The position numbers and the translations under genes are program-made. Positions 4,566 to 52,699 of a stretch of 64,000 nt of DNA are shown here, piece after piece (position 1 is the first letter of the stretch; the number at the start of each line of letters is the position of its first letter). Under the pieces are notes generated by a model, which saw only the letters and a program-made list of their open reading frames with translations, made no database searches and had not been told where the DNA came from. Source of the stretch: an uncultured Dehalococcoidia bacterium (GTDB taxonomy: Bacteria > Chloroflexota > Dehalococcoidia > Lucifugimonadales > UBA3495); NCBI GenBank assembly GCA_951813535.1, contig OX638345.1, positions 3,898,608 through 3,962,607 of the forward strand, written 5' to 3'.

Positions 4566-5263
4566 CTGGCCTCAAATGGAGATCCGGTGGCCGCCCTGAT
4601 GGTCTCACTGGCGGCTCTGAACTCGCCCAACTGGGCGTCCAGTTCCAGGATGGCCGTCGGGACGTCCTGGAACGACGAGGTGTCAAAAACAAAATCGGTC
4701 CGCAGCTCGAGCTTGCGCAGACTCGCATCCATATCGTCCAGTTGCTTTCCGATAGCCAGCGCCTTGGCCAGCGCCGAGTTAGCCTGGGCTTCCCACTGAC
4801 GGTACAGCGCGAGGTCCCGCTCGTCGTCCTGGCGGGCTTTGGCTTTGGTTGCCGGGTCATTGATTCTCTCGGTGAGCGCCTGTTGTGTCGCGAAGTAACC
4901 GGCGGCGCTGGCCTTGGCATTGTCGATCGCCGCCTCGAACTTGACGTAGGCCAGCTTGGCGTTGTCGTAACGCGGTTCCCACCGGTCAATGAGCGCGTCG
5001 ATGCTGGTGATCTTGGCGATCTCGGCAGTGGTGGGCTGGGAACCGGCCTCCGAGACGCTGCCACCGGAGGTACCACCGGCAAAGACGCTCACGTCCCCCA
5101 ACGCGCGGTTCATGTTCTCGGCCTGGTTTTCGGCCAGTTGTACCGAGTCAGACATCCTGGCCGCCTCGGTCTGGGTCACCTCCCCGTACACCGTGAGGCC
5201 CGTGTAGGCAATGACCGCAACCACCACTGCGATCAGAGCGTATTTCAGCGTTCGTCTGATCAT
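4562..5263 (-). CDS. Membrane-anchored helical protein, unknown function
   Basis: A 233-residue protein with one N-terminal membrane segment (about residues 7-26). A long, Ala/Glu/Lys/Arg-rich helical region follows that should form coiled coil, interrupted by a Gly/Ser-rich stretch at about residues 62-75. This layout resembles LemA-like or stator-like anchored helical proteins, but I see no specific LemA signature. An ATGA overlap couples it to the downstream multi-pass membrane protein. It starts 121 bases after the frameshifted NUDIX gene of the kinase operon and could be its distal part. Function unknown. Confidence 0.7.
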   Translation of the reverse strand: MIRRTLKYALIAVVVAVIAYTGLTVYGEVTQTEAARMSDSVQLAENQAENMNRALGDVSVFAGGTSGGSVSEAGSQPTTAEIAKITSIDALIDRWEPRYDNAKLAYVKFEAAIDNAKASAAGYFATQQALTERINDPATKAKARQDDERDLALYRQWEAQANSALAKALAIGKQLDDMDASLRKLELRTDFVFDTSSFQDVPTAILELDAQLGEFRAASETIRAATGSPFEAR

Positions 5264-30800: not shown

Positions 30801-31343
30801 CCCTATCAGATGCCGGAGCGCGCCCGTTAACACGGGATCGGCGTCGGCGTCGTTGCCCAGCGCGCGGTCCATCCATTGCTCCCACTGCTCTTCAAATCGC
30901 TGGACAGCCTCGACCGCGTCCATTGGTGTCCAGCCTGGCGGGAGATCAACCGCCAGAGGACGTTCCCGCAGCAGCTGCGCGGCGAAACTGTGAATGGTCT
31001 GGACCGCAGATTGATCCAATTCTCCGATCGCGAAGCGTATACGGACCCGGTCCCGGTCGGTCATCTGTTGTGCCAACAGGTCGTGAGCGTTGGCGGGATT
31101 GCCGTCATCCAACAATTGTTCCATTCGCGACCGGATGCGTTCGGAGAGCTCAGCCGCCGCCGCCTCCGTGAAGGTGATGGCGACGATGTTCTGCATTTTC
31201 ACGCCTGCCTTCACCAGGGCAACCACCCGGCTGACCAGAGCGTAGGTCTTTCCGGTCCCGGCCCCTGCCTCGATCATGAGGTTGGCGTCGAGATCATGGA
31301 CGATTCTGTCCAGGGTCATGTTGTCGTCAGTCTTCGTCGTCAT
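27843..31343 (-). CDS. addA: AddA-like helicase-nuclease (UvrD/RecB type)
   Basis: An 1166-residue protein, started at the ATG at 31343, which overlaps the end of the addB-like gene. SF1 helicase motifs are in order: Walker A EAGAGTGKTYAL (about residue 25), LIDEFQDTDPLQAE, VGDSKQSIYRFRRAD, TMHAAKGLEFPVVILLG and YVGATRARDHLLVS. The C-terminal part is a RecB-type nuclease: FGSALHKAL, GIIDLLYRD and ILDYKSD, the PD-(D/E)XK core. With AddB it would process double-strand breaks for RecA loading and degrade foreign linear DNA. The pairing with AddB and coupled starts makes this call firm. Confidence 0.93.
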   Translation of the reverse strand: MTTKTDDNMTLDRIVHDLDANLMIEAGAGTGKTYALVSRVVALVKAGVKMQNIVAITFTEAAAAELSERIRSRMEQLLDDGNPANAHDLLAQQMTDRDRVRIRFAIGELDQSAVQTIHSFAAQLLRERPLAVDLPPGWTPMDAVEAVQRFEEQWEQWMDRALGNDADADPVLTGALRHLIGVNAGVSSWNEIARAFDENYDRLASERSTPEIDLRALAEETLGKLKTLREQCTDPSDGLFQQISFAAQTVEAVLEAADRPPDAARALEQGAIVDYAGTRGSSARNWTIPITEVRKQFREEIGRPFQNAVRFAPAVVLLRDLRKIFALDYATERKAEGVATFNDLLVWARDLLRDDAPTRRRFQDRYTHILIDEFQDTDPLQAEIAFYLATTPETDVAASNWHSIPLVPGKLFIVGDSKQSIYRFRRADIGVTRLVRESGQLHSLTLTENRRSQKPILDWVNAVFSELMVEEADLQAEYIALQPNPGLQRPDLTAAVRVFGEPRERNADSLRREQARHVAGIIADSAGEGASSRLLVCNRETGGVRPAELRDVCVLIRSRTGLGILTRALEQAGIPYRLEGRSLVFGTQEVQDLLNCLRAIDDPSDEVSIVAALRSPAFACSDVMLARWRGAGGNWNYQSRLLDDSERFGDYGAERRQQLAELGPDFPVRSGLLKLRAYHEMRQTAGVARLIAKFIRERRLEELDLVEERPREIWRRRRFLEEQARQLEQAGEASPSAPPLTLHAFLQWADLQQEEGARITEIAVPETDDDAVRIMTMHAAKGLEFPVVILLGLEQNPSATSRSVLFDLRTGLAEVKLGRMQTPGYADLLEWEKYHAAAEQVRLAYVGATRARDHLLVSMYQSTARGNQHGSGIVAQIAELDGITALPHSALQAGVDGGTRYQSPVDQAKSLAEYSPDDWQQAREESIRHRGFPQAVTATRVAKGVAAPDADIEDKDADRDSEAIDRAGRGGTAFGSALHKALQVVADRISQKLPLKDDDTADDILAELDPGVAQIARSCAEEYGVADSGEDIARLANRALRSPAISAALHAPKLWSEVPVAATVDTLRGPIVVEGIIDLLYRDHDDQLVILDYKSDRVDNDAAVEVKLRHYRMQGAAYAAAVERATGISVKAVQFLFVRCPDGLREIDNLRELIEEIPQVVANVMR

Positions 31344-34300
31344 CAGCACCAATCGCGGCCTTGCTGCCCAGTGAGTTAAATGGTTGGACGGTTTCAGCGT
31401 CGGTCAGACCCTTGCGTTCCCAGGCCTGCCGTCGGCGTACGGGGCACAGCCGATTGAACTCGCAGTACGTACAGTTGCCCCGTTCCTGGCTGCTGTCGCC
31501 CGCGGTTTCCGGCGTAGCCGGGAAAATGCCGCGCCGGGCGGCGTCGACTATCGCGACGAGCGTGGCGCTGAACGCTTCGCGGTCGGCTTCGGTGTAAGGC
31601 GCCACGCCGTGGATGTTGTTTTCGGCCAGGGGAAAACAATAGGAAGCGGTGATGCTGAATTGGTTGTCGGGATATTTTTGGCGCGCGGCCGCCGCATAAA
31701 CCGGCAACTGCAGCGCCCGTCCGTTGGCCAACGTACGCGTCGCTTTGCGGCCCCTGGAACCGTCAAAGTAGGGTTCGGGTCGCCCGGTCTTGAAATCGCG
31801 GACCCTCACCTCGTTGCCTATCACGTCGACGCGGTCGATTTTGCCCCGAAACCAGACCTCGCCCAGGCCTTCCACGTTGAAGCCCACCTCGCCGATTTCG
31901 GTTCCCGGGCCGAAGCCTTCCTCGGCCACCGATTCGCTTGGGACACCGGTCAGCCACTCCATCTCGTGGTCCGCGAATCTTTGGAGACTTTCCCGGACGT
32001 CCTCCTTGGTCATATCCCAAAGCAGAGGGTAGCCCGTGACGCCACGTTGCGCGGCGACCAGGAACTCCTCTTCCGCCAATGACAGCAGGTCGGCGTCGGC
32101 CTGCGCGCCTTCCTCCACGAAACGCTCCAGGATCCGATGCACCAGAGCGCCCCGTTCCAATGGACTCATGGCATCTTCTTCCTCCTCGCCCGGCAGCGCA
32201 GCCAGACGCAGCACCCGGCTGAGAAAGAATTTGTGCGGACAGGTCGCCCACGTTTCCAGGGCGCTGGGTGATACGGGTCGTTCCCTGGTGCCGATGGAGG
32301 CGATGGCTGGAATGTCCACCTCCACCCGACCTTCCCACTGCGACAGCGCTCCACCGTTTCGGGCGTCTCTCGCGTTCAGAGCCTGACTCATCCGCAGGTG
32401 GGATGCGATAGCCGGATGGTGGCGGCGGGAATCCCGTGGCTGAGCGACCAGATGCATCAGGTTGTAATCGGCGGAGTCGGCGGGTTCGATGTCAGGGCTC
32501 GCGAGGGCTCGCAGACCGCCTTCCCGGGAGCGGATGTACGTGAGCCAGGGTTTGGCTTCCAGATTGTCAACCAGGTTTTCATAGGTGAGCCGGTCAGCTG
32601 CGCCCGCTTGCTGATGCCGGCGGTTGGCGGCTTCGATGAGCCACCGCGACGGATAGGCCGCGCTGCGTTCGGCAGTGGCCGACGGCCAGGACAACACGGC
32701 TTTTTGCCCGGCGGCCACGGCAGCCATAAAATCGTATCGTTCCAGGGACGCCAGCCGGTCCAGGTCGGATTGGCTCTGCGCCAGCCACGGGCTGCGGTGC
32801 GGTCGCGGTGGAAACTGACGCTCCACCATGCCCAGGACGTACACCACATCGTAATCCGCGCCGGCGATACCGGCCGGCGGGCCCATGTAGACCCCATTTC
32901 CAACTTGGCGACCCCGTTCGGACACCGGGCTTTGCAGACCCTCCCGCACGGCTTCGCGGAGCGCTTCCGGACTGTATTCGACTCCCCAATCACCCAGGCT
33001 GCTGAAACCTCCCGCCACTTCGTCGATCCGCCGGAGGTCCTCCTCCGCCTCTCCAGGCACAACCCAGCGGTAGGCCGTGACCAATTCCTGTAGCCGTTGC
33101 GAGGCGAAATCCCATCCCACGTTATCCGCCCGGCCCAGGCTGGACAGGTGAGCAGCCAGTTGCTCGACGAAGTGCAACAATTCCCTGACCTGCTGCCTCA
33201 GGCGCTCCATGAACGGGTTGTCATCCCCGCCGCTTGCCGCGTCGGCCTGCGGTTCCATTTGCGCCACGTAGACGGAGAGGCGCTCTCGCCAATTTTGGAC
33301 CGTCCCGCCGGACCTGGCGTTCCGAGCCAGGTTGGCCCAGGCAGCAGCCGGCGCCGTTCGGGGACGTGGTGGGTCTTCGGCCTCTGCCGTTTCCCGTTGC
33401 CACCGCACCGGCGCGGAGGTGAACCATTCGATCAGTCGTTCGCGGTCAATCGTCCGTCCGGGTCCGTTCAGCTCCGCCGCAAGGTCCGTCAATCCCAGCA
33501 GGACTCGGCCGCCCGGCGTATCGGCCAGTCGACGGTAATCCACTCCGGTGTAGGGTACACCAGCGAAGTCGAACTCCTGGCGGAGCAGGCTGCCGTAGGG
33601 ATTGTCCTGCCGGTAAACCACGGCGATGCGGTGAAAGGGCCTGTCGTCGGCCGCGATGCTTCGTATGACGGAACGGACTTCCTCCTCGGGGTCTGGAGCC
33701 ACCACGATGGACAGCGAATCGGCGTCGGTCTTCAGGTGTAGCGGGTCGGCATCGGGGACGTTGGATGCCTCTACGGCCGCTGGACCGTCGAGCAGTTCCA
33801 GCAGCTTCAGCACCGGCGCGTCGGCATCGTCGTCGCCCACCAACCCCGCGATCACCCGGCACTTGCCCCGATCCAGCAGCGCGCGGGCCAATTCCGTGTC
33901 TGCGACGGACAGGCGACGGGGCAGGTAATAGATCACGGCCGGTTCCCGGCCCGGTTCCCAACGATCGTTCAGGGCTTCAACCGCCATGGACGCCAACTCC
34001 GTCGGCAGGTAATAACCTCTCGCGTCCACCAAAGTCCGGTAATCGCCGTAGAGGCGCTCGGCCAGGAGGCGCATGTCGTCAGGCTCATCGATGGGAGCAA
34101 CGTCAGCGAGGTCGGGCCGCTCAGCCATTTCACGAAATGCCGCCGTAAGCGAGCGATAGAAGCGGCGGCAACCGGCCGAGCCGAAACCCAGGCGGTTGGC
34201 GTCGGGCTCTGCAACTAAACGCACCGCCTGTGTTTCCAGCGTACGGGGCAACTGCTTGCCCACGGGGTCCGCCAGTTCTTTGGCAAGATGCCGCCCGGTC

Positions 34301-34494
34301 TGAACGGCGACGTTCACCGTGCCGGACACGCCCAAGCGGTGCCGCACGGACTGCGCCACGTCGCGATGGTCCGTGATGATTACCACTCTTGCGAATGGAT
34401 CGGACGCCTGAACGTCCGCAACCGTCTGAACGAGGCTCGACAGTGCTGCCGTTCCCACCGGGACGACGTTGAATAACAAATCGGTTTGGCTCAA
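31327..34494 (-). CDS. addB: AddB-like nuclease subunit
   Basis: A 1055-residue protein beginning with TTG at 34494. The N-terminal half is a degenerate helicase region. The C-terminal nuclease has RGKIDRVD, VRVRDFKTGRP and QLPVYAAA. The cysteines that hold the AddB iron-sulfur cluster are visible: one in ATCPHKFFLSR at about residue 750 and three in NCTYCEFNRLCP near the end. The gene precedes and overlaps the addA-like gene by 17 bases, the usual addB-addA order. Confidence 0.92.
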   Translation of the reverse strand: MSQTDLLFNVVPVGTAALSSLVQTVADVQASDPFARVVIITDHRDVAQSVRHRLGVSGTVNVAVQTGRHLAKELADPVGKQLPRTLETQAVRLVAEPDANRLGFGSAGCRRFYRSLTAAFREMAERPDLADVAPIDEPDDMRLLAERLYGDYRTLVDARGYYLPTELASMAVEALNDRWEPGREPAVIYYLPRRLSVADTELARALLDRGKCRVIAGLVGDDDADAPVLKLLELLDGPAAVEASNVPDADPLHLKTDADSLSIVVAPDPEEEVRSVIRSIAADDRPFHRIAVVYRQDNPYGSLLRQEFDFAGVPYTGVDYRRLADTPGGRVLLGLTDLAAELNGPGRTIDRERLIEWFTSAPVRWQRETAEAEDPPRPRTAPAAAWANLARNARSGGTVQNWRERLSVYVAQMEPQADAASGGDDNPFMERLRQQVRELLHFVEQLAAHLSSLGRADNVGWDFASQRLQELVTAYRWVVPGEAEEDLRRIDEVAGGFSSLGDWGVEYSPEALREAVREGLQSPVSERGRQVGNGVYMGPPAGIAGADYDVVYVLGMVERQFPPRPHRSPWLAQSQSDLDRLASLERYDFMAAVAAGQKAVLSWPSATAERSAAYPSRWLIEAANRRHQQAGAADRLTYENLVDNLEAKPWLTYIRSREGGLRALASPDIEPADSADYNLMHLVAQPRDSRRHHPAIASHLRMSQALNARDARNGGALSQWEGRVEVDIPAIASIGTRERPVSPSALETWATCPHKFFLSRVLRLAALPGEEEEDAMSPLERGALVHRILERFVEEGAQADADLLSLAEEEFLVAAQRGVTGYPLLWDMTKEDVRESLQRFADHEMEWLTGVPSESVAEEGFGPGTEIGEVGFNVEGLGEVWFRGKIDRVDVIGNEVRVRDFKTGRPEPYFDGSRGRKATRTLANGRALQLPVYAAAARQKYPDNQFSITASYCFPLAENNIHGVAPYTEADREAFSATLVAIVDAARRGIFPATPETAGDSSQERGNCTYCEFNRLCPVRRRQAWERKGLTDAETVQPFNSLGSKAAIGADDDED

Positions 34495-34772: not shown

Positions 34773-35129
34773 CGCGGGTTGTCCTGGTCGATACCCACCC
34801 TCTCGCCACCACGGTACGATCTCCCCAAGTCCGACGCCGCTAAATCTTCCGGCCCTCGTTTGGGTTCGCCGTATCGGTCAGGAGGTTTTTCCCACCGGGG
34901 CGCGGGCAACCACCCTGCGCACATGCGATGCCCACCAGCCGACGACAAATTGCAATCCGTGGCATGGTACAACTCTCCCGATGGACGGCTCGCAGGCTGC
35001 CTGGGACTCTTATAGACGACCTGGAGGACCGTCGAGGACCGACGCCCTCCCTCAGCGGACGCGAACTGAACCGCGAGACTCCGCCAGCATCGCAAGGTCG
35101 ATTACGCCAGCAGCGCGCACGCTGGAGGC

Positions 35130-36130
35130 ATCGCGACTCGTCCGGGTTCGGGGTACTGACCAGAACTTCAGCCAACGGTTGACGCACTTCGAGTTGGGCT
35201 TTGCTTCGGGCAGCACGCCCCATGCTGGAAACCGGTATGGCCAAGCCAAACGATTGGATGATGTGCTGGTCCATCAACGATGGATCAGCACATCAGGCAA
35301 TGGACGAGATGCACGCGGTCCGGGGCGCCGGGTCTGGGGCGCAGCTCCAGCGTGCGGTACATCCGCTCCGACACGAAGGGAGCCCGAGGCGCCGTGAGCC
35401 TGGTGACCACCATCAGGCATTGCTACAACGTGGCGTAGGCCTCAACCTTATCGACGCCTTTTGCCGATTTCCAGAGACGGTGGCGCGACCAGCGCACACA
35501 CCCGTTGGACAGGACGTTGATAAATTCGGCGGTGCTTCGTCCAGCCTCGCCTACGTCATTGCCGTTTAGTATGTCATCCACCTCGACGATCAACGGGTTG
35601 AGTTCCGCGAGGACCCATCGGACCAAATCGGCCTTCGGTCGCCATCCCTCGAGCACATAGGCCGGCTTAAAGCCGTCAATGTTGGCGAAGGTGGTAAAGA
35701 ACCGATAGACATTCCACAGCGCCAGGAGAACCCGCCGCATGGTTTGCTGGACCATGCGGCGGGCAAAATGGAGCGGCTCTCCTGGTTGAGGTCAAGTCAG
35801 CAGATGCCAACGCAGGGCGTCGGCTCCGTAAGTGTCCAGAATGGCGCCGAGGGCGGTTTCGTTTCGGCGGCTACGCGCGGTGTTCGATGGGCAGGAAAGG
35901 GGGTCGAGATCGCTGAACGCCCTACCTTCCTCTGTTTCGGGCCTGGACAGCAGGCCGAGGCGGTTCTCGATTTCGCGCGAAATCGGCAGTCCCCTGGGTG
36001 TCTCCTCCGCCCGCGGGGACACCCTGTAGCCCTTCATGGTGCGGCACCGGCAGATGGCGTCCGGCTAAACCTGACCCAGGACGTGGCGAATGGCAGGGCT
36101 TCCGACGTCAGCGGTGCGCCTTCCATGCGC
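35130..36130 (-). pseudogene. ileS: Decayed isoleucyl-tRNA synthetase gene with a large internal deletion
   Basis: Read on the minus strand from right to left, the first recognisable part is the N-terminal region (AIRHVLGQV, stop, then AICRCRTMKGYRV and RGLPISREIENRLGLL). The sequence then jumps to the part behind the KMSKS loop (AILDTYGADALRWHLLT) and continues through the anticodon-binding domain (QQTMRRVLLALWNVYRFFTT, FANIDGF, VEAYATL), then APFVSERMYRTLEL and GRAARSKAQLEVRQPLAEVL. More than half of a normal 1000-residue IleRS is missing, including the editing domain. Several stops and frameshifts separate the pieces. A functional ileS must exist elsewhere in the genome. The segment identities are clear from the conserved blocks. 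Confidence 0.8.
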
Positions 36131-37050
36131 CACGAACAACGGCGCGTCCGGGTTAGGTCCCGTCAACAGGTGCAAATGGCGTCATCTGTGGTGACGTCGT
36201 TCAGGCTGCCGCCTGCAGGATGCTGGCCGCTGGCAAAGCCTCGGTGTCGATGTCGTTGGCGTGCGTAAACAGGCAGGAAATGCTGACGGTAGTCTCGCAG
36301 CTAAAGTCAACCATTTTTGAACGGTACGTTTACGCCCGAGCAGGGTTTGTGCAGCGCCGCCTGAACCTCCGTTGAGTTTCCCGGGCGGGCGCAGAAACTC
36401 TCCGTGGCCGCCGCGGGTGAAGCCGATCCGCATCCTCCTCCCCGCACGAGCTGTACAGGAACTGATGAGCGGCGACCGTACGTTGCCGATGCGGCTAAAT
36501 CGCGTGTGCGTCCGCACCTTCGTGCAGGAGAGAACGACTGAACCGTCTACGCTTTCTTTCAGAAGTCCAACGCGCCGCCATAGAATGGCGAATGCGGGCA
36601 GGGCAGGCGGCGAACGGGGAGCGTATACTTGCCAACGAAAGCAGAGGCATCGAGTTTGGCATGTGTCCCGACGTCGATGTGCGGCCGGGGAGCGCGGTGT
36701 TGAGCGAACCGCGGCGCCAGTTGGGAGACGGCGCCGACAACCCTACCAAACTTTGGCGGGCCGCCGGATGGCGCAGGGCGCCGACGCCGTGGAGCGGCCG
36801 AAGGGTTCAAGTCCGCGATACCGCGGGACGGATAAAGATGGCGGTTTGGACCTACAACCGGCTCGACGTGATTTTCTCCGATGAGTCGCGCTCGGTATCG
36901 GATCGCTTGGGCTACGTCAAAAGCTCTTACAAAATCAGGGGTGCCCTGGATCCCATCCGATTTGGCGAGGAAACGATCACAGAATTAATGCACAGGATTG
37001 GGCATTAGTGCGCCGCTCGCCTGATTTCAATAGTGGTAATAAAAGTGGTA
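36131..37050 (+). other. Mostly non-coding; one doubtful frame at 36592-37008
   Basis: No gene is clear. A plus-strand frame of 138 codons (36592-37008) has a protein-like second half (WTYNRLDVIFSDESRS, then ALDPIRFGEETITELMH) but a low-complexity first half, so it may be the end of a decayed gene. The rest looks random. Confidence 0.3.
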
Positions 37051-37076
37051 ACCGCCGTCGTAGGACGGCGGTTTTA
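37051..37076. terminator. Rho-independent terminator
   Basis: A perfect 9-bp stem (ACCGCCGTC and GACGGCGGT) with a GTAG loop is followed by TTTTAT on the plus strand. It could end a plus-strand transcript from the 36592 frame. It also lies 160 bases downstream of the integrase stop and may mark the edge of the integrated module. Confidence 0.65.
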
Positions 37077-37233
37077 TACTCAAAACTGCAAAGTTTTGGA
37101 GCCGATGAAGGGATTCGAGGATATCGTTAAAATAGGGTGCCGTACAGTCCTGTGAATTGAGGTTTCCTACTCAAATCTACGAGTGCGGTGCGGCAAGGTG
37201 TTGAGAGTTACTGGCAATTTGTCCAGCATTGCA

Positions 37234-38361
37234 CTACGCGGCATCTCGCATCAGATCTGCGAACGCCGCCGCCGCGCCCCGCTGCCAGCCAGGCAATGCA
37301 TGAGCGTAGATGGACAGTGTAATCGCTGCGCTCGAGTGGCCCAAACGCTCGGCGACCACCGCGGGGTTTTGGCCTGACTGCAACAGCATCGTCGCGTGAA
37401 AGTGGCGCAAGCTGTGGAGCGTGACCTCAGGACAATTGGCACGGATCGCTAATCTCGATACCATTCGTCCCAAGACAGTTGGGCGGCACCAATCGGTCGA
37501 TCCTCGTTTGGGAAACACCATATACGGCAGGTCAACGCCCAAAGCAGTCGCCAGGTCTAGTTGCCGAGCACGATGATCTCGGAGCACGCCGACTGTTTCG
37601 GCGTCGAGTTCGATTTCGCGTTCACCGCTTTCGGTTTTTGGCGGTTCCATTTTGACCCCGTGTGCGGTCACTACCAAGGATTGGACCACCGACAAGCAAG
37701 CATCGTCCAGATCTACATGCCTCCATTCCAATCCCGAAATCTCGCCGCGTCGGAGCCCGGTGTACGCGGCTAGATGTACAGCTGGCCACAAGGGATGTCC
37801 GGATCGTTCTGCCGTGGCCAGGAGAGCGTGCACTTGTGAAACCTCCGGGACGAACGCTCTCTTTTTCGGGGATTTCGGAGGTGTAACCAACCTCGCGGGG
37901 TTTCGCCCGATTAGTTCCATTTTCATGGCAAGGTCCATGGCTGCGGTCAAAACATTGTGAACCGCCTCTACCCCTTTAGGATCCATACCGCCCTTTATCA
38001 GTTCCAACTCCAGGTCTTTGATATGTATTGGTGACAATTTCGCCAGCTCCACGCGTCCCAATCCGGGATTGACGTGTAAGCGAATGATCCCCTCATAACG
38101 ATCGACGGTCTTCTCACGTATTCCTCCAATTTGTTTCTCATCCAACCATTTGTCCAACCACTCTCCGACCCTGTACCGGGTTTGGGCGGGGGTAATGCCG
38201 CGGTCCAGCTCGGCCCATATTTCCCGGAGACGGCGTTGGGCGTCCGATTTTTTGCCGCGGACCGTTTCCGTCTTGCGCATGCGTTTGCCGTTGGCGTCGC
38301 GGCCCAGGAACACCTGGATTTCCCAGGACCCCGGGTTGCGTTGTCTGACAGTGCCATTCAT
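37234..38361 (-). CDS. Tyrosine-type site-specific integrase
   Basis: A 375-residue protein with an N-terminal SAM-like core-binding domain (about residues 60-150) and a catalytic domain. The tetrad is visible: Arg204 in TGLRRGE, His316 and Arg319 in HSLRHFH, His342 in RLGHSS, and Tyr352. Intact by length and motifs. It resembles phage or integrative-element integrases. An excisionase-like gene lies upstream. No phage structural or conjugation genes accompany it in the window, so it probably belongs to a small satellite-like or decayed island. I did not find the attachment sites. Confidence 0.92.
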   Translation of the reverse strand: MNGTVRQRNPGSWEIQVFLGRDANGKRMRKTETVRGKKSDAQRRLREIWAELDRGITPAQTRYRVGEWLDKWLDEKQIGGIREKTVDRYEGIIRLHVNPGLGRVELAKLSPIHIKDLELELIKGGMDPKGVEAVHNVLTAAMDLAMKMELIGRNPARLVTPPKSPKKRAFVPEVSQVHALLATAERSGHPLWPAVHLAAYTGLRRGEISGLEWRHVDLDDACLSVVQSLVVTAHGVKMEPPKTESGEREIELDAETVGVLRDHRARQLDLATALGVDLPYMVFPKRGSTDWCRPTVLGRMVSRLAIRANCPEVTLHSLRHFHATMLLQSGQNPAVVAERLGHSSAAITLSIYAHALPGWQRGAAAAFADLMRDAA

Positions 38362-47909: not shown

Positions 47910-48467
47910 ATGCAAACGGCGAAAACGGTTATTTTGATGAGTGGTGGCATCGACTCCACGACTGTTGCGGCAATTTATCGAAGCGCAGACGCTCAGGCTA
48001 CTGGGCTATTCGTCGATTACGGTCAACCGTCTTCACAAAGCGAATGGCAATCTGCTCGCCGGATCGCTGGGGAATACGGCATCCCCATTCACAAAATCGA
48101 GATGGGATTTAGGTTGGCGTCTGCCAAGGGCGAATTCTTCGGCAGGAACGCTTTGTTGATTCTGACCGCTGCCGGAACTTCAGAGACCAGGCCCTTGGAA
48201 ATCGTGTTGGGAATTCATGCGTTTGCCGAGTACTATGACACCACGCCGTTATTCGTCAGGCATATGAAGCGTCTCTTGACCGGCTACTTTGAGGACACAG
48301 TGACCCTTGCGACACCTCTTCTCCAATATACTAAAGCAGAAGTGATTCAGTACTCACGAGAGCTTGGCGTTCCATTGGAATTGACCTATAGCTGTGAATA
48401 TCAGAACGATCCGCCGTGTTTGCGGTGCCCATCATGTGAGGACAGAGATGCAATCCTTGCCAGATGA
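47910..48467 (+). CDS. QueC-like protein of a type IV CBASS operon (Cap9-like)
   Basis: A 185-residue protein, shorter than housekeeping QueC (about 220-230). It has the PP-loop ATP site SGGIDST at residues 11-17 and a C-terminal zinc site with Cys162, 170, 173 and 176 (SCEYQNDPPCLRCPSC). QueC makes preQ0 from carboxy-deazaguanine. QueC-like Cap9 proteins of type IV CBASS have instead been reported to attach a deazaguanine to the N-terminus of the CD-NTase. No queD, queE or folE gene lies nearby, which argues against a tRNA queuosine pathway. The gene overlaps the next one by 20 bases. The enzyme family is certain; the CBASS role rests on the two following genes. Confidence 0.88.
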   Translation: MQTAKTVILMSGGIDSTTVAAIYRSADAQATGLFVDYGQPSSQSEWQSARRIAGEYGIPIHKIEMGFRLASAKGEFFGRNALLILTAAGTSETRPLEIVLGIHAFAEYYDTTPLFVRHMKRLLTGYFEDTVTLATPLLQYTKAEVIQYSRELGVPLELTYSCEYQNDPPCLRCPSCEDRDAILAR

Positions 48468-49437
48468 CCGGCCACATCGGCAAGGACGACTGATCGAGAA
48501 GTTGGAGGTGAGAACCCCGCTGATCGTTCCCTCATTTTCAAGCCGCGGGTTTCCTGATGTTGGAGAAATCTATCATGAGATGAAGCATAGGCTACACGGC
48601 GTGTGCTTGGTTAGTTCCTTAGACATGGGTTTGGGTTGCATTCCTACTGACGCGACTGAGGATGTCGATCTCGTAATCATTGACAGTGGTGGGTACGAAC
48701 GTCAGCACTTTGCAAGCGAAAGCGTGGGCTATGCCAACTCCGGCTCCAACGTTGTTTGGTCGAGGCACCTCTACCACGCTATTGCCAGCCTCGTCGACCC
48801 GGCTGCAAACACGATTCGAGTGAATTTCGATGAGATTGGAGCCATTGATGAGCAAATCGGTCAGGCTTTAGAAGATTTCGCATATGCGCCTCAGGCGGCC
48901 TGGGATTTTCTAGTCAAACCCGAACGGCTACACGAGGCGGTCAACGTGGCCAAACTCGCGACGCATACCGACGCATTAAGGCAATTTGACATCGTAGGTG
49001 TTGCTGCCCGCGACGCGTCAACTTCCTTGATCAAACGTTGCAGGACAATAGTTATGCTGAGAGACGCACTGTCGGACGCTGGCCTTAATCCCCCAATCCA
49101 CATTATGGGAGCAATAAGACCGATTGAAGTGCTAACTTATTATTTCTGCGGCGCTGATATTTTTGATGGCCTGAACTGGCTTAGGTACTCGTTCAAAGAA
49201 GAGGGATCTCGACATATTGAAGATGCAGCTTTTGAGACAACGGGCCGTAATCTATCGGACGCAGAGTTACTGCTCACCGAACGGGCTGCCAATCTAGCGC
49301 TGCTTTATCGCCTGCAAGAATCCCTCCGATATTATAGCTCGACTCAGGATATGAATGAACTGGTGAAGGATTTTCCGTCCGCGAAACGGGCCGCCGACAT
49401 CGCTGAGTTGGCGGGGGCAGTGATTTCAACATGCTAA
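48448..49437 (+). CDS. TGT-like protein of a type IV CBASS operon (Cap10-like)
   Basis: A 329-residue protein, started at the ATG at 48448 inside the end of the queC-like gene. It resembles tRNA-guanine transglycosylase: the catalytic-type Asp79 in IIDSGGYE, VRNFDEIGAID-like VNFDEIG, and a barrel end with HIMGAIRPIEVLTYYFCGAD and FDGLNWLRY. The C-terminal zinc site and tRNA-binding tail of housekeeping TGT are not evident. In type IV CBASS such proteins (Cap10) accompany the QueC-like Cap9 and act on the deazaguanine pathway, probably removing or exchanging the base. The operon position supports this, but the reaction is not shown here. Confidence 0.8.
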   Translation: MQSLPDDRPHRQGRLIEKLEVRTPLIVPSFSSRGFPDVGEIYHEMKHRLHGVCLVSSLDMGLGCIPTDATEDVDLVIIDSGGYERQHFASESVGYANSGSNVVWSRHLYHAIASLVDPAANTIRVNFDEIGAIDEQIGQALEDFAYAPQAAWDFLVKPERLHEAVNVAKLATHTDALRQFDIVGVAARDASTSLIKRCRTIVMLRDALSDAGLNPPIHIMGAIRPIEVLTYYFCGADIFDGLNWLRYSFKEEGSRHIEDAAFETTGRNLSDAELLLTERAANLALLYRLQESLRYYSSTQDMNELVKDFPSAKRAADIAELAGAVISTC

Positions 49438-49450
49438 GGAGCAAAAACCC

Positions 49451-50344
49451 ATGGGAGGCTCATCACAAGGCGGCTACTTCCTCCGACCGAGACAGTCAAC
49501 CCATCAGGAGTTGAGCGACGCGGAAATCAACCGTGGTTTGGAAGAGCTACTACGGGAATACAACGAACAAGAACGTGAGGATATCAACCGGCATCTAGAT
49601 GTGCTGCGCGGCAGTTTGGAACTCACGGATGATGACGTGGTACGCATCCTCTTCGGTGGTTCCCAAAGTAAGCATACCGCGGTCAACGGACTGAGCGATG
49701 TTGATGCCCTCGCCATCATCAACGATTCATCATTGTTGGGCGAGCAACCGGCTGCAATCATCCAACGGATGGCAGAGCTCATACAGCAGCGTTTGCCGCA
49801 AACCAACGTAAGCCCTGGCGACTTGGCGGTGACGGTCAAGTACTCGGACGACATTGAGATACAGATCCTGCCGGCGATACGCACGGAAACCGGAGTGCGT
49901 ATCGCCGATCCGGATACCAATCAATGGAGCAATATCGTTCACCCTGATAGATTTGCTCAGAAGTTAACCCAGGTCAATCAGGCAAACAACGGGGGAGTTG
50001 TCCCAACCGTTAAGCTCATGAAAGGTTTGGCGAAACAAGTTATCAGCAGCGATCGGGATAAGATTGCGGGGTACCACATGGAATCCCTAGCGATTGAAGC
50101 TTTCAGCGACTACGACGGCCCGAAAGACCGGAAAAGCATGTTACGACATTTCGCGGACTACTCATCCAAAGCCGTCCTGAAACCTATCGCGGATGTGACA
50201 GGACAGTCGAGATACGTCGATGGCTACCTCGGCCCCGCGAACAGCCCACAGCGTCAGCGAGCGGCGAAAGCGTTCCAGAGAATGCTAAACAAGTTTGATG
50301 CTTGCAAGACCGAAGCGGAATTCAAGAACCTGTTCTGGTCCTGA
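49451..50344 (+). CDS. CD-NTase (cGAS/DncV-like nucleotidyltransferase)
   Basis: A 297-residue protein with AAGGAG eight bases before the ATG and 13 bases after the TGT-like gene. The catalytic site is clear: GGS at 69-71, eleven residues, then Asp83-x-Asp85 in GLSDVDALAI, and a third acidic pair in DDIEIQILPA (Asp134, Glu136). A helical C-terminal half follows. CD-NTases make cyclic oligonucleotides that switch on a CBASS effector upon phage infection. The protein begins MGGSSQGGYF: after methionine removal it has an N-terminal Gly, the residue needed for deazaguanine conjugation in type IV systems. No effector follows; an IS5 element begins 147 bases downstream. Confidence 0.9.
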   Translation: MGGSSQGGYFLRPRQSTHQELSDAEINRGLEELLREYNEQEREDINRHLDVLRGSLELTDDDVVRILFGGSQSKHTAVNGLSDVDALAIINDSSLLGEQPAAIIQRMAELIQQRLPQTNVSPGDLAVTVKYSDDIEIQILPAIRTETGVRIADPDTNQWSNIVHPDRFAQKLTQVNQANNGGVVPTVKLMKGLAKQVISSDRDKIAGYHMESLAIEAFSDYDGPKDRKSMLRHFADYSSKAVLKPIADVTGQSRYVDGYLGPANSPQRQRAAKAFQRMLNKFDACKTEAEFKNLFWS

Positions 50345-50490
50345 TGTGCGGGGATGGCGCCCAATGCAAACCAAGTCCAACCGGTCTCGGATAGTGCCAG
50401 CCGTTCCTGCCCGAAGAGCGATTGTACCAGTTGATCGGATCCGTGGGGAATCTGAACACCAAGGTCTCAACAGCCGGCGGACGTGTCTAA

Positions 50491-51397
50491 GAGAGTGTGT
50501 GACAAATAGGATCAGGCGGGTTGGAGGCGTTTGAGCATCAGGTTGACCATGGCGATATGCACCCATGCCTCGCTGCTCTCGGTGCGCTCTTCGTAGTGCT
50601 TGCTTAACCGTCGGCATCTGCTCAACCAGGCCAGGGTGCGCTCCACCACCCACCGCCTGGGCAAGACTTCGAAGTGGTGGCTGTCCGGCTTGCGCCTGAC
50701 TATGGTCAACATCCAGCCGCCGGTGGCCCAGGCCCACGCCACCAGTTGGCCAGCGTAGCCAGCATCGGCCCAGATCAGCCGCAGTCGGGGGAATCGGCCC
50801 AACAGTTTGACCAATGCCAACTTGGCGCCGTCCCGATCCCCGTGTCGTGGCACGGGGCAGGCTCTGAATGTTGGCGGCATGAACCACCACGGCCAGCAGC
50901 AACCCCATGGTGTCCACGACGATGTGCCGCTGGCGTCCCGTTACCCTTTTGCCAGCGTCGTAACCTCTGGGCCCCCTTTTTCCGTGGTCTTCACCGACTG
51001 GCTGTCAATGATGGCCGCGTTGGGCGTAGCCGTGCGACCCGCACTTTCCCGAACCCGCGCCCGCAGGGTCGACTCCACCCGTTCCCAGGCGCCGTCATCC
51101 CGCCAGTTGCGGAAGTACCACCACACCGTGCCCCAGGGTGGCAGGTCATGGGGCATCAGGCGCCAGGGTATTCCACCCCGGAGCACGTACAGGATGCCGT
51201 TGACCACCTCGCGCAGGTCCGTGGTTCTGGGATGGCCCCTTTGGGTGTCGGGTGACAGCAGGGGCGCCAACTCCTCCCACTGGGCATCGGTCAAATCGCT
51301 GGGATAAGGTTTTCTACTCATGCCCCCAGCCTAACCAGTACCCTTCCCTCACCCCAAGAAGAACCCGCGCACCTTTGCGCCATTGTCACACACCCTC
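50491..51397 (-). mobile_element. IS5-family (IS1031-like) element
   Basis: Ends are GAGAGTGTGTGACAA at 50491 and TTGTCACACACCCTC ending at 51397. TAA flanks both sides (50488-50490 and 51398-51400), fitting the TNA target of this group. The element lies between the CD-NTase gene and the truncated second CD-NTase-like gene. The bases 50345-50490 contain a short frame (from 50364) that runs into the IS and may be the start of a disrupted gene. Confidence 0.85.
50512..51321 (-). pseudogene. IS5-family transposase with two frame breaks
   Basis: The first part (51321-50941) reads PSDLTDAQWEELAPLL, GGIPWRLMPHDLPPW and IIDSQSVKTTEKGG. The frame changes at a run of A and G (GAAAAAGGGGG) into RGYDAGKRVTGRQRHIVVDT, then changes again after HAANIQ. 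There a 25-base insertion containing a 7-bp hairpin (CCCCGTG at 50838 and CACGGGG at 50851) precedes DRDGAKLALVKLLG. The end (WADAGYAG, WVVERTLAWLSRCRRL) is normal. The first break could be programmed slippage; the second is a lesion. Confidence 0.8.
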
Positions 51398-51496
51398 TAA
51401 TCAAATCGAAACACTATCACCAAACCGGAGAATTCACGACTCAGGTGGCGTGGCTGCGAACGGCGGACAGTTCTGCAACGCACGCGAGCCGCTGGG

Positions 51497-52699
51497 TCAA
51501 CCTGCCTGCGCTGCCAGCAGTTTGTCGACCTCACCCTTGTGGCAATGCCGGTATTTGCGGCCGTTCCGGCACGGGCACGGCTTGTTGGGCCCGTGGTTCT
51601 GCTTTTTGTAATTCAGCAGGTCCGTTTCATACTGACGCTTGGCACCCTCGAACCCGTCACGGTGATGGTAGGTTCCCCACAGGTCTGATTCCGCCCGCTC
51701 GACGCCGTAACGAGCGGCGTACGCCAGGCGATAGAAGAACGGGGCCACCAGTTCGTCGATGAAAGGTATGATCCCCCGCCATTCGTCGGTGTTCTGCAGG
51801 CTGAGACAGCAGTGGTTCACATCGGCTCTTTCGTCGAAGAAGTGGAGGTCCGCTATGCCCACGCCCTGTTCTCCCATGATCCGCTGTGCTCGCCCGCCGG
51901 TTTCGTACACGGGCGGCCAGGGCGCCAACTCGGATTTGCCGTGGGTCAGCTGAATCTCGATCGCGAAATCATCCTCGACGTACATCCTGTCCCCCTCTCT
52001 GCGGGGGATATTGATTTTCAATCCTACGCCGGGCCGGTAAGAGGCTTGCACGCGTAGGTTGCCGGACAGGACGTTGGTCTCCGCATCATAAGCCAGTTGC
52101 GGATGACGCTCGGCTAGTTGCTCCAGGTCGGCCGTTGACACCTCTCGGGCGACAAATCGGCGGCCGGTGCCTTCGAGGACGCTGCCGTACTGCTTACGCG
52201 GTTGCACCAGGACTGATGCGGAGGCTGTCGATGCTTGGGTGGCCCGTCGCTGCGCTCCGGCATTCGCGCCTGGCCCTGAGGGAGATCCGGCGTTCCGGTC
52301 CTGCCCTGCGTTAGAATTGCTCCTCAGTTTGAAGTCCTCGCCGAACAGCTTCTGCCAGGCCGCAATGGACTTAGCCTTATCGGTCTCGTCTCTAGCCTGG
52401 CGAGCGGTGCTGGCGTAGACCCCCATGAGGCGACGGAAGTTCTGGTACTGGTTGTCCTCCCAATGCGTGTTGAACGTCAGGTCAGGGTTCGCCGGATTGG
52501 CTATCACCGGTATCTGATCGCACTTCTCCAGCCGCTCATCAATCCGGGTCAGCACGGTGGCCACCGTGTCCGCCATCGTGCTGACCTCTTCACCGTCAGC
52601 ATCTTTCTCCTGTATCGCTTCCCCGGCCAAGGCCGTCAGAATAACGGACGGGACACTGAAGTTGCCCTTGTGATCGCGGAGGAACTTGAGCAGCCTCAC
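51497..52699 (-). pseudogene. N-terminally truncated CD-NTase-like protein with possible E2-like domain and SEC-C tail
   Basis: The first 120 codons (RLLKFLRDHKGNFSVPSVIL, then FNTHWEDNQYQNFR and WQKLFGEDF) match the C-terminal helical part of SMODS/CD-NTase enzymes. Coding similarity extends upstream of 52699 (GNLKRTV), but the catalytic GS-DxD half is absent. After a Ser/Ala/Gly linker (about 125-165) comes a domain with FAIEIQLTHGKS, PPVYETGGR, ADLHFF and NHCCLSL. This recalls the E2-like proteins of type II CBASS, with a candidate Cys. The C-terminus is a SEC-C zinc motif (PCPCRNGRKYRHCH). CD-NTase and SEC-C parts are well supported; the E2-like reading is tentative. Truncation is toward the IS1380 element at 53 kb. 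Confidence 0.65.

Follow-up and report, generated by a model that had tools for sequence, protein, structure and literature searches.

Type 2 isoleucyl-tRNA synthetases (IleRS2) that carry a GXHH signature are tied to mupirocin hyper-resistance by Brkic et al. 2023 (PMC10485003). MupA and MupB are acquired IleRS2 enzymes, and bacterial pseudogenes beside insertion elements are ordinary. Here we describe an ileS pseudogene in a stretch of 64,000 nucleotides (the window, G000:C1:3898608-3962607) from an uncultured Dehalococcoidia bacterium. The original prediction was of a dead ileS with its editing domain deleted, the displaced or duplicated counterpart of a second ileS that was possibly acquired as a resistant type. 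What we observe is an ileS remnant with stops and a large deletion, an intact native copy elsewhere in the genome, unconstrained change at conserved sites, and flanking mobile DNA.

Results

The dead ileS gene lies on the minus strand at window positions 35113-36151 and is a pseudogene slightly wider than the 35130-36130 first proposed. The prediction that conserved blocks of ileS occur in order, with over half of the gene gone and stops present, agrees with TIGR00392, with tblastn, and with a nucleotide profile built from the ileS region of 12 genus genomes, the host's own included. TIGR00392 (ileS) matches the remnant with E = 1.7e-31 and 6.3e-4, with stops within the matches. The nucleotide profile matches two stretches, 36151-35927 (minus, E 4e-20) and 35847-35125 (minus, E 2.2e-132), which keep the order of the gene and are separated by 1579 missing positions of the profile. 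What survives is a run of about 75 codons around the class I signature and another of about 255 codons from the C-terminal half; in the frame of the intact gene, tblastn places the absent residues at ~1-41, 117-616, and 874-1028. With two queries (L023 and L039) the match extends weakly to 35059 and 35035, respectively. The nucleotide profile of the genus ileS region finds no ileS start, middle, or C-terminal end at this locus and no neighbouring mutM.

Three blocks can be followed by tblastn. Block A (35927-36151, minus; tblastn, nucleotide profile, and translation) holds codons ~42-116 with a decayed class I signature and a TAG at 36067-36065. It is followed by the deletion junction, which in the nucleotide profile view occupies 35848-35926 (minus) and where about 500 codons are gone, including the editing domain and up to the KMSKS region; the tblastn alignment of the C-terminal part begins at 35878, as against 35847 in the nucleotide profile. 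Block B (35303-35878, minus; tblastn, 58% to the genome's own ileS, and profile) covers codons ~617-813 and contains a TGA at 35794-35792 and a TAG at 35425-35423. Beyond a frameshift located between ~35303 and 35292, block C (35113-35292, minus; tblastn and translation) continues with codons ~814-873 in the shifted frame. The reading frame is identical on either side of the large deletion.

In its signature region the remnant shows SPAIRH instead of the SPGIHH of the intact gene, two single-base steps away from the genus GIHH codons. KMSKS is unreadable, and both signature motifs are lost. Short IleRS structures, which we take to be CP1 editing domains, align at residues 198-410 of the intact gene. 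This region is inside the deletion (residues 117-616), so the editing domain has been lost from the remnant, as the original prediction had it. The locus combines homology to a known gene, its parts in the right order, with disabling lesions (three in-frame stops, one frameshift, the ~500-codon deletion, and the lost ends). Judged by its sequence, a remnant that has lost its catalytic and editing parts would be unable to act as an enzyme.

The host genome is a single contig of 4,377,943 bases, 99.8% complete, with a reported contamination of 4.94%. A single locus exceeds the TIGR00392 cut-off, G000:C1:2445377-2447959 (923 bits); from their frames and profile positions, we read the remaining matches outside the remnant as related synthetases. 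The second ileS that a dead copy of this gene had been taken to imply is therefore present, and since it is intact there is no need to invoke misassembly, the explanation reserved for a genome with no other ileS.

The intact gene carries GPPTANGSPGIHH, which gives a GIHH signature in place of HXGH, and KMSKR. Among solved structures, its closest relatives are 1ile (893 bits) and 8c8w (889); a group scoring 593-675 bits, with several members named cytoplasmic, comes next, and 8c9f (344) and 1ffy (333) score lower still. We take the first pair to be type 2 and the last pair type 1, in part on the basis of PMC10485003. The MupA and MupB models rank second and third for the intact gene, after the ileS model. 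On these sequence grounds, the intact gene qualifies as an IleRS2 with the GXHH signature. Classification of the functional ileS and comparison of its phylogeny with that of the remnant, proposed with the original prediction, thus give type 2 for the former and the same IleRS2 clade for the latter.

The neighbours of the intact gene are thiD and mutM, in the order thiD-ileS-mutM. Across the 11 other genus loci counted (G005 and G008 were left out), thiD adjoins ileS in all 11 and mutM in 10; in three loci from outside the genus, thiD is close to ileS every time and mutM is seen once, the remaining two loci breaking off shortly past ileS. The gene order is common to the genus, and we therefore regard the intact ileS as the native gene. 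In protein trees it groups with the genus enzymes. The proposal that the intact copy was acquired as a resistant type is not supported by these observations. In its fullest form, the remnant would be the lineage's original ileS, displaced by an incoming resistant enzyme, and the GIHH of the intact enzyme, a signature tied to mupirocin hyper-resistance in PMC10485003, fits such a history. However, the intact gene occupies the genus place for ileS and groups with the genus, GXHH is general among the relatives, and the remnant belongs to the same clade with a decayed signature only two single-base steps from GIHH codons; we consider displacement very unlikely. By synteny the remnant is the out-of-place copy, so the description "displaced" is not supported, whereas "duplicated" may hold, as may transfer from an unsampled relative.

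Of 40 ileS sequences from the host genome and relatives of the same order, 38 have GXHH (30 sequences and a further 8, GVHH, of a lower-scoring class); the other two are incomplete at this point. The 40 sequences come from 39 genomes: G014 gave two, and G032, which has an ileS fragment only, was left out. A switch from type 1 to type 2 was considered and rejected; both copies are of the type 2 clade, and such a switch is neither seen nor needed. The named relatives of the intact ileS are Dehalococcoidia, Chloroflexi, and SAR202 metagenome-assembled genomes, several of which presumably come from sponges. Outside the 40-sequence set, the ileS of Dehalococcoidia W403 (L089) has the signature PGLHF, which is neither HXGH nor GXHH.

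Among 40 genomes, and among the matches listed, two ileS places over the cut-off occur only in G014. Its two long ileS genes (L015 and L038) score 936 and 767 bits, and the reported contamination of this genome is 8%; L038 has a run of unknown residues and groups with G018. The two genes are either real paralogs or contamination.

A decayed ileS is seen with certainty in the host genome only, among 50 genomes of the family; five of these (G042, G045, G046, G047, and G054) have no ileS-like match at the threshold, and the absence of a remnant from them means little. In each of the 13 other genomes of the genus, the C-terminal piece strongly matches nothing but a single intact ileS, and a DNA search, in which part of the first-look candidates were scored, agrees on the native ileS alone. 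A partial ileS match in G050 (C246:30748-31119) has one TAG inside and is either another decayed copy or a sequencing error. In G056, ileS may have been replaced: its best match (C53:37305-38015) shares 38% identity with the query, as against 65-75% in those other members of the family, outside the genus, in which an ileS-like match exists. A literature search by title and the start of the abstract found nothing on SAR202 pseudogenes, nor an ileS pseudogene or duplication matching this case.

The remnant is flanked by mobile DNA. The end of an IS256/Mutator-type element (~110 bp, 36152-36261) abuts ileS codon 42. It has matches of 73-79% at five other places in the genome and of up to 82% in other genus genomes, and one copy (L073) overlaps the end of a Transposase_mut ORF. 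Next to it, at 36262-37096 (minus), the sequence lying immediately downstream of tRNA-Thr(CGT) (G000:C1:3348673-3348748) is present for a second time, as two pieces with identities of 82% and 88%. Some 0.85 kb is thus present twice in the genome (here and at L069:4728-5730; 82-88% identical), one copy lying beside the intact tRNA and the other beside a tRNA 3' end and an integrase. That 3' end, 23 bp of a tRNA-Thr-like gene at 37097-37119 (minus), occurs once in the window and is a probable attachment site. The adjoining gene (37234-38361, minus) encodes a tyrosine integrase (PF00589, E 1.8e-19; PF14659, E 2.3e-10).

On the opposite flank of the remnant lies an AddB-like/PD-(D/E)XK gene (31327-34494, minus) that matches PF12705 and scores far under the AddB cut-offs. 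It is patchy in the genus, with a match in 10 of 14 genomes, the host's included, and 31-58% identity in the other nine. Scanning the window against Rfam and for tRNA genes yielded no matches, and a Pfam search with five small ORFs around the remnant found nothing. Past the tRNA-Thr fragment, in the direction of the integrase, the window also contains CBASS-like genes (48394-52699): one for a TGT-type protein (7.6e-87), one for an oligonucleotide cyclase (3.4e-103), and an ORF with matches to both cyclase and E2 models.

At the protein level the remnant is 54-58% identical to the genus enzymes, and its own genome's gene, at 55.9%, is no closer than the others. It falls inside the genus in a FastTree tree of 59 rows (branch 0.86) and an IQ-TREE tree of 26 rows (branch 1.35), and a nucleotide tree of 21 rows likewise puts it there; it is not sister to its own genome's ileS in the best trees. 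L084, L085, and L088 were dropped from the protein trees as duplicates of genome rows, and the rows omitted from the 26-row set include the incomplete L038 and L048. An AU test (L028 left out) also prefers the remnant inside the genus, with p 0.118 for sister to the own ileS and 0.113 for outside the genus at 5000 resamplings, where the program advises 10000. From these sequence comparisons, the remnant is best placed in the genus's own IleRS2 clade, on a very long branch inside the genus. The AU test excludes neither alternative placement, and duplication and transfer are therefore indistinguishable.

At the DNA level the remnant is only ~61-70% identical to genus ileS genes, too divergent to be the native gene in collapsed or chimeric form. 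This bears on whether the locus is an assembly artefact or contaminating DNA, a suspicion that the reported contamination might raise. The divergence speaks against it, the genome is in one contig, and the partner of the flanking repeat lies elsewhere on that same contig; an artefact seems extremely unlikely.

At sites invariant among 14 genus genes, the remnant has changed at 55/233, 59/273, and 10/40 for codon positions 1, 2, and 3 (56/233, 61/270, and 11/46 with 11 reference genes), with just 40 sites behind the third-position figure and a difference between the blocks (28/33/18% in block A and 22/18/28% in block B). Four functional controls show 0.4-3.7% change at positions 1 and 2 and 5-13% at position 3. 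The remnant has lost constraint at sites that the genus keeps invariant, and the about equal change at all three positions implies that at least its later history was free of constraint. The shared frame across the deletion could be held to favour a shortened, editing-free IleRS-like protein still made through readthrough, but frames agree by chance in one case out of three. With three stops, a frameshift, neither signature motif preserved, and even change of conserved sites over the codon positions, this idea retains almost no credibility.

On the remnant branch, a three-point estimate gives dN 0.27, dS 0.70, and a ratio of 0.38 (bootstrap 0.24-0.52; 58 of 60 usable), as compared with 0.04-0.16 for five functional controls. 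Neutral simulations have mean ratios of 0.65-1.10, although these were measured directly from the start sequence, unlike the three-point estimate for the remnant. The three stops in 314 remnant codons are within the 0-15 that neutral simulations give. As the ratio of 0.38 is below the simulated mean, the copy was perhaps not dead from birth. We grade this hint of an earlier working phase before decay as weak, since single reference pairs within the genus (L028 left out) spread over dS 0.37-1.0, with 0.33 the lowest of all pairs.

These data allow a narrower account of the extra copy, in which an unsampled sister species was its source and the transferred gene was, or stayed, functional for some time before it died. 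The excess of synonymous change on the remnant branch (~0.70 versus 0.25-0.36 in neutral simulations of similar depth) would follow from a working phase, although dS is noisy near saturation. That the host's own gene is no closer to the remnant than other ileS genes are, and is not its sister in the best trees, fits a transfer, but the AU values given above weaken this point and a long-kept paralog would give the same picture. An integrase and a tRNA fragment adjoin the remnant region; however, the remnant and the integrase are on opposite sides of that fragment, so the remnant need not have belonged to the integrase element. We regard transfer with a working phase as a fair contender whose chances are somewhat short of even.

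Discussion

We are confident that an extra IleRS2 gene, of the same clade as the native one, has left a non-functional fragment here, which lies at a mobile-element site and drifts without constraint. We suggest that the extra copy arose by duplication or came from a close unsampled relative, and landed among mobile elements, at some distance from the thiD-ileS-mutM locus of the native gene. An IS256/Mutator-type element would then have interrupted it near codon 42, probably as a disabling step. The copy would have lost ~1.6 kb of its middle as well as its start and end, and the remnant has since drifted unconstrained; the order of these events is our inference. No enzyme is expected from the remnant, and tRNA charging would fall to the intact GIHH IleRS2.

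In itself the remnant is of little weight; it is debris in a genome that depends on one native type 2 IleRS. It would matter more if a second GXHH IleRS2 had once worked beside the native one, exchanged via a mobile element that targets tRNA-Thr and then discarded, as this would mean a turnover of antibiotic-hyper-resistant synthetases in the lineage. We think that unlikely. Possibly more useful is the finding that GXHH, described as a mupirocin hyper-resistance signature in PMC10485003, is carried by 38 of the 40 ileS sequences read.

The intact gene resembles the IleRS2 enzymes with the non-canonical GXHH described in PMC10485003 in having GIHH, and the remnant is of the same clade but differs in lacking the catalytic and editing parts. 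With the acquired MupA and MupB the intact gene has its broad type in common (839.8 and 807.5 bits). It differs from them in that these scores are far under the 1900-bit cut-offs and in that it sits at its native chromosomal locus, so that on neither score nor location does it look like an acquired resistance gene. The closest likeness of the remnant is to ordinary bacterial pseudogenes beside insertion elements, with which it shares stops, a frameshift, a large deletion, unconstrained change, and an IS end at the break. Nothing notable sets it apart from them; its parent gene is essential, and the native copy of that gene is intact.
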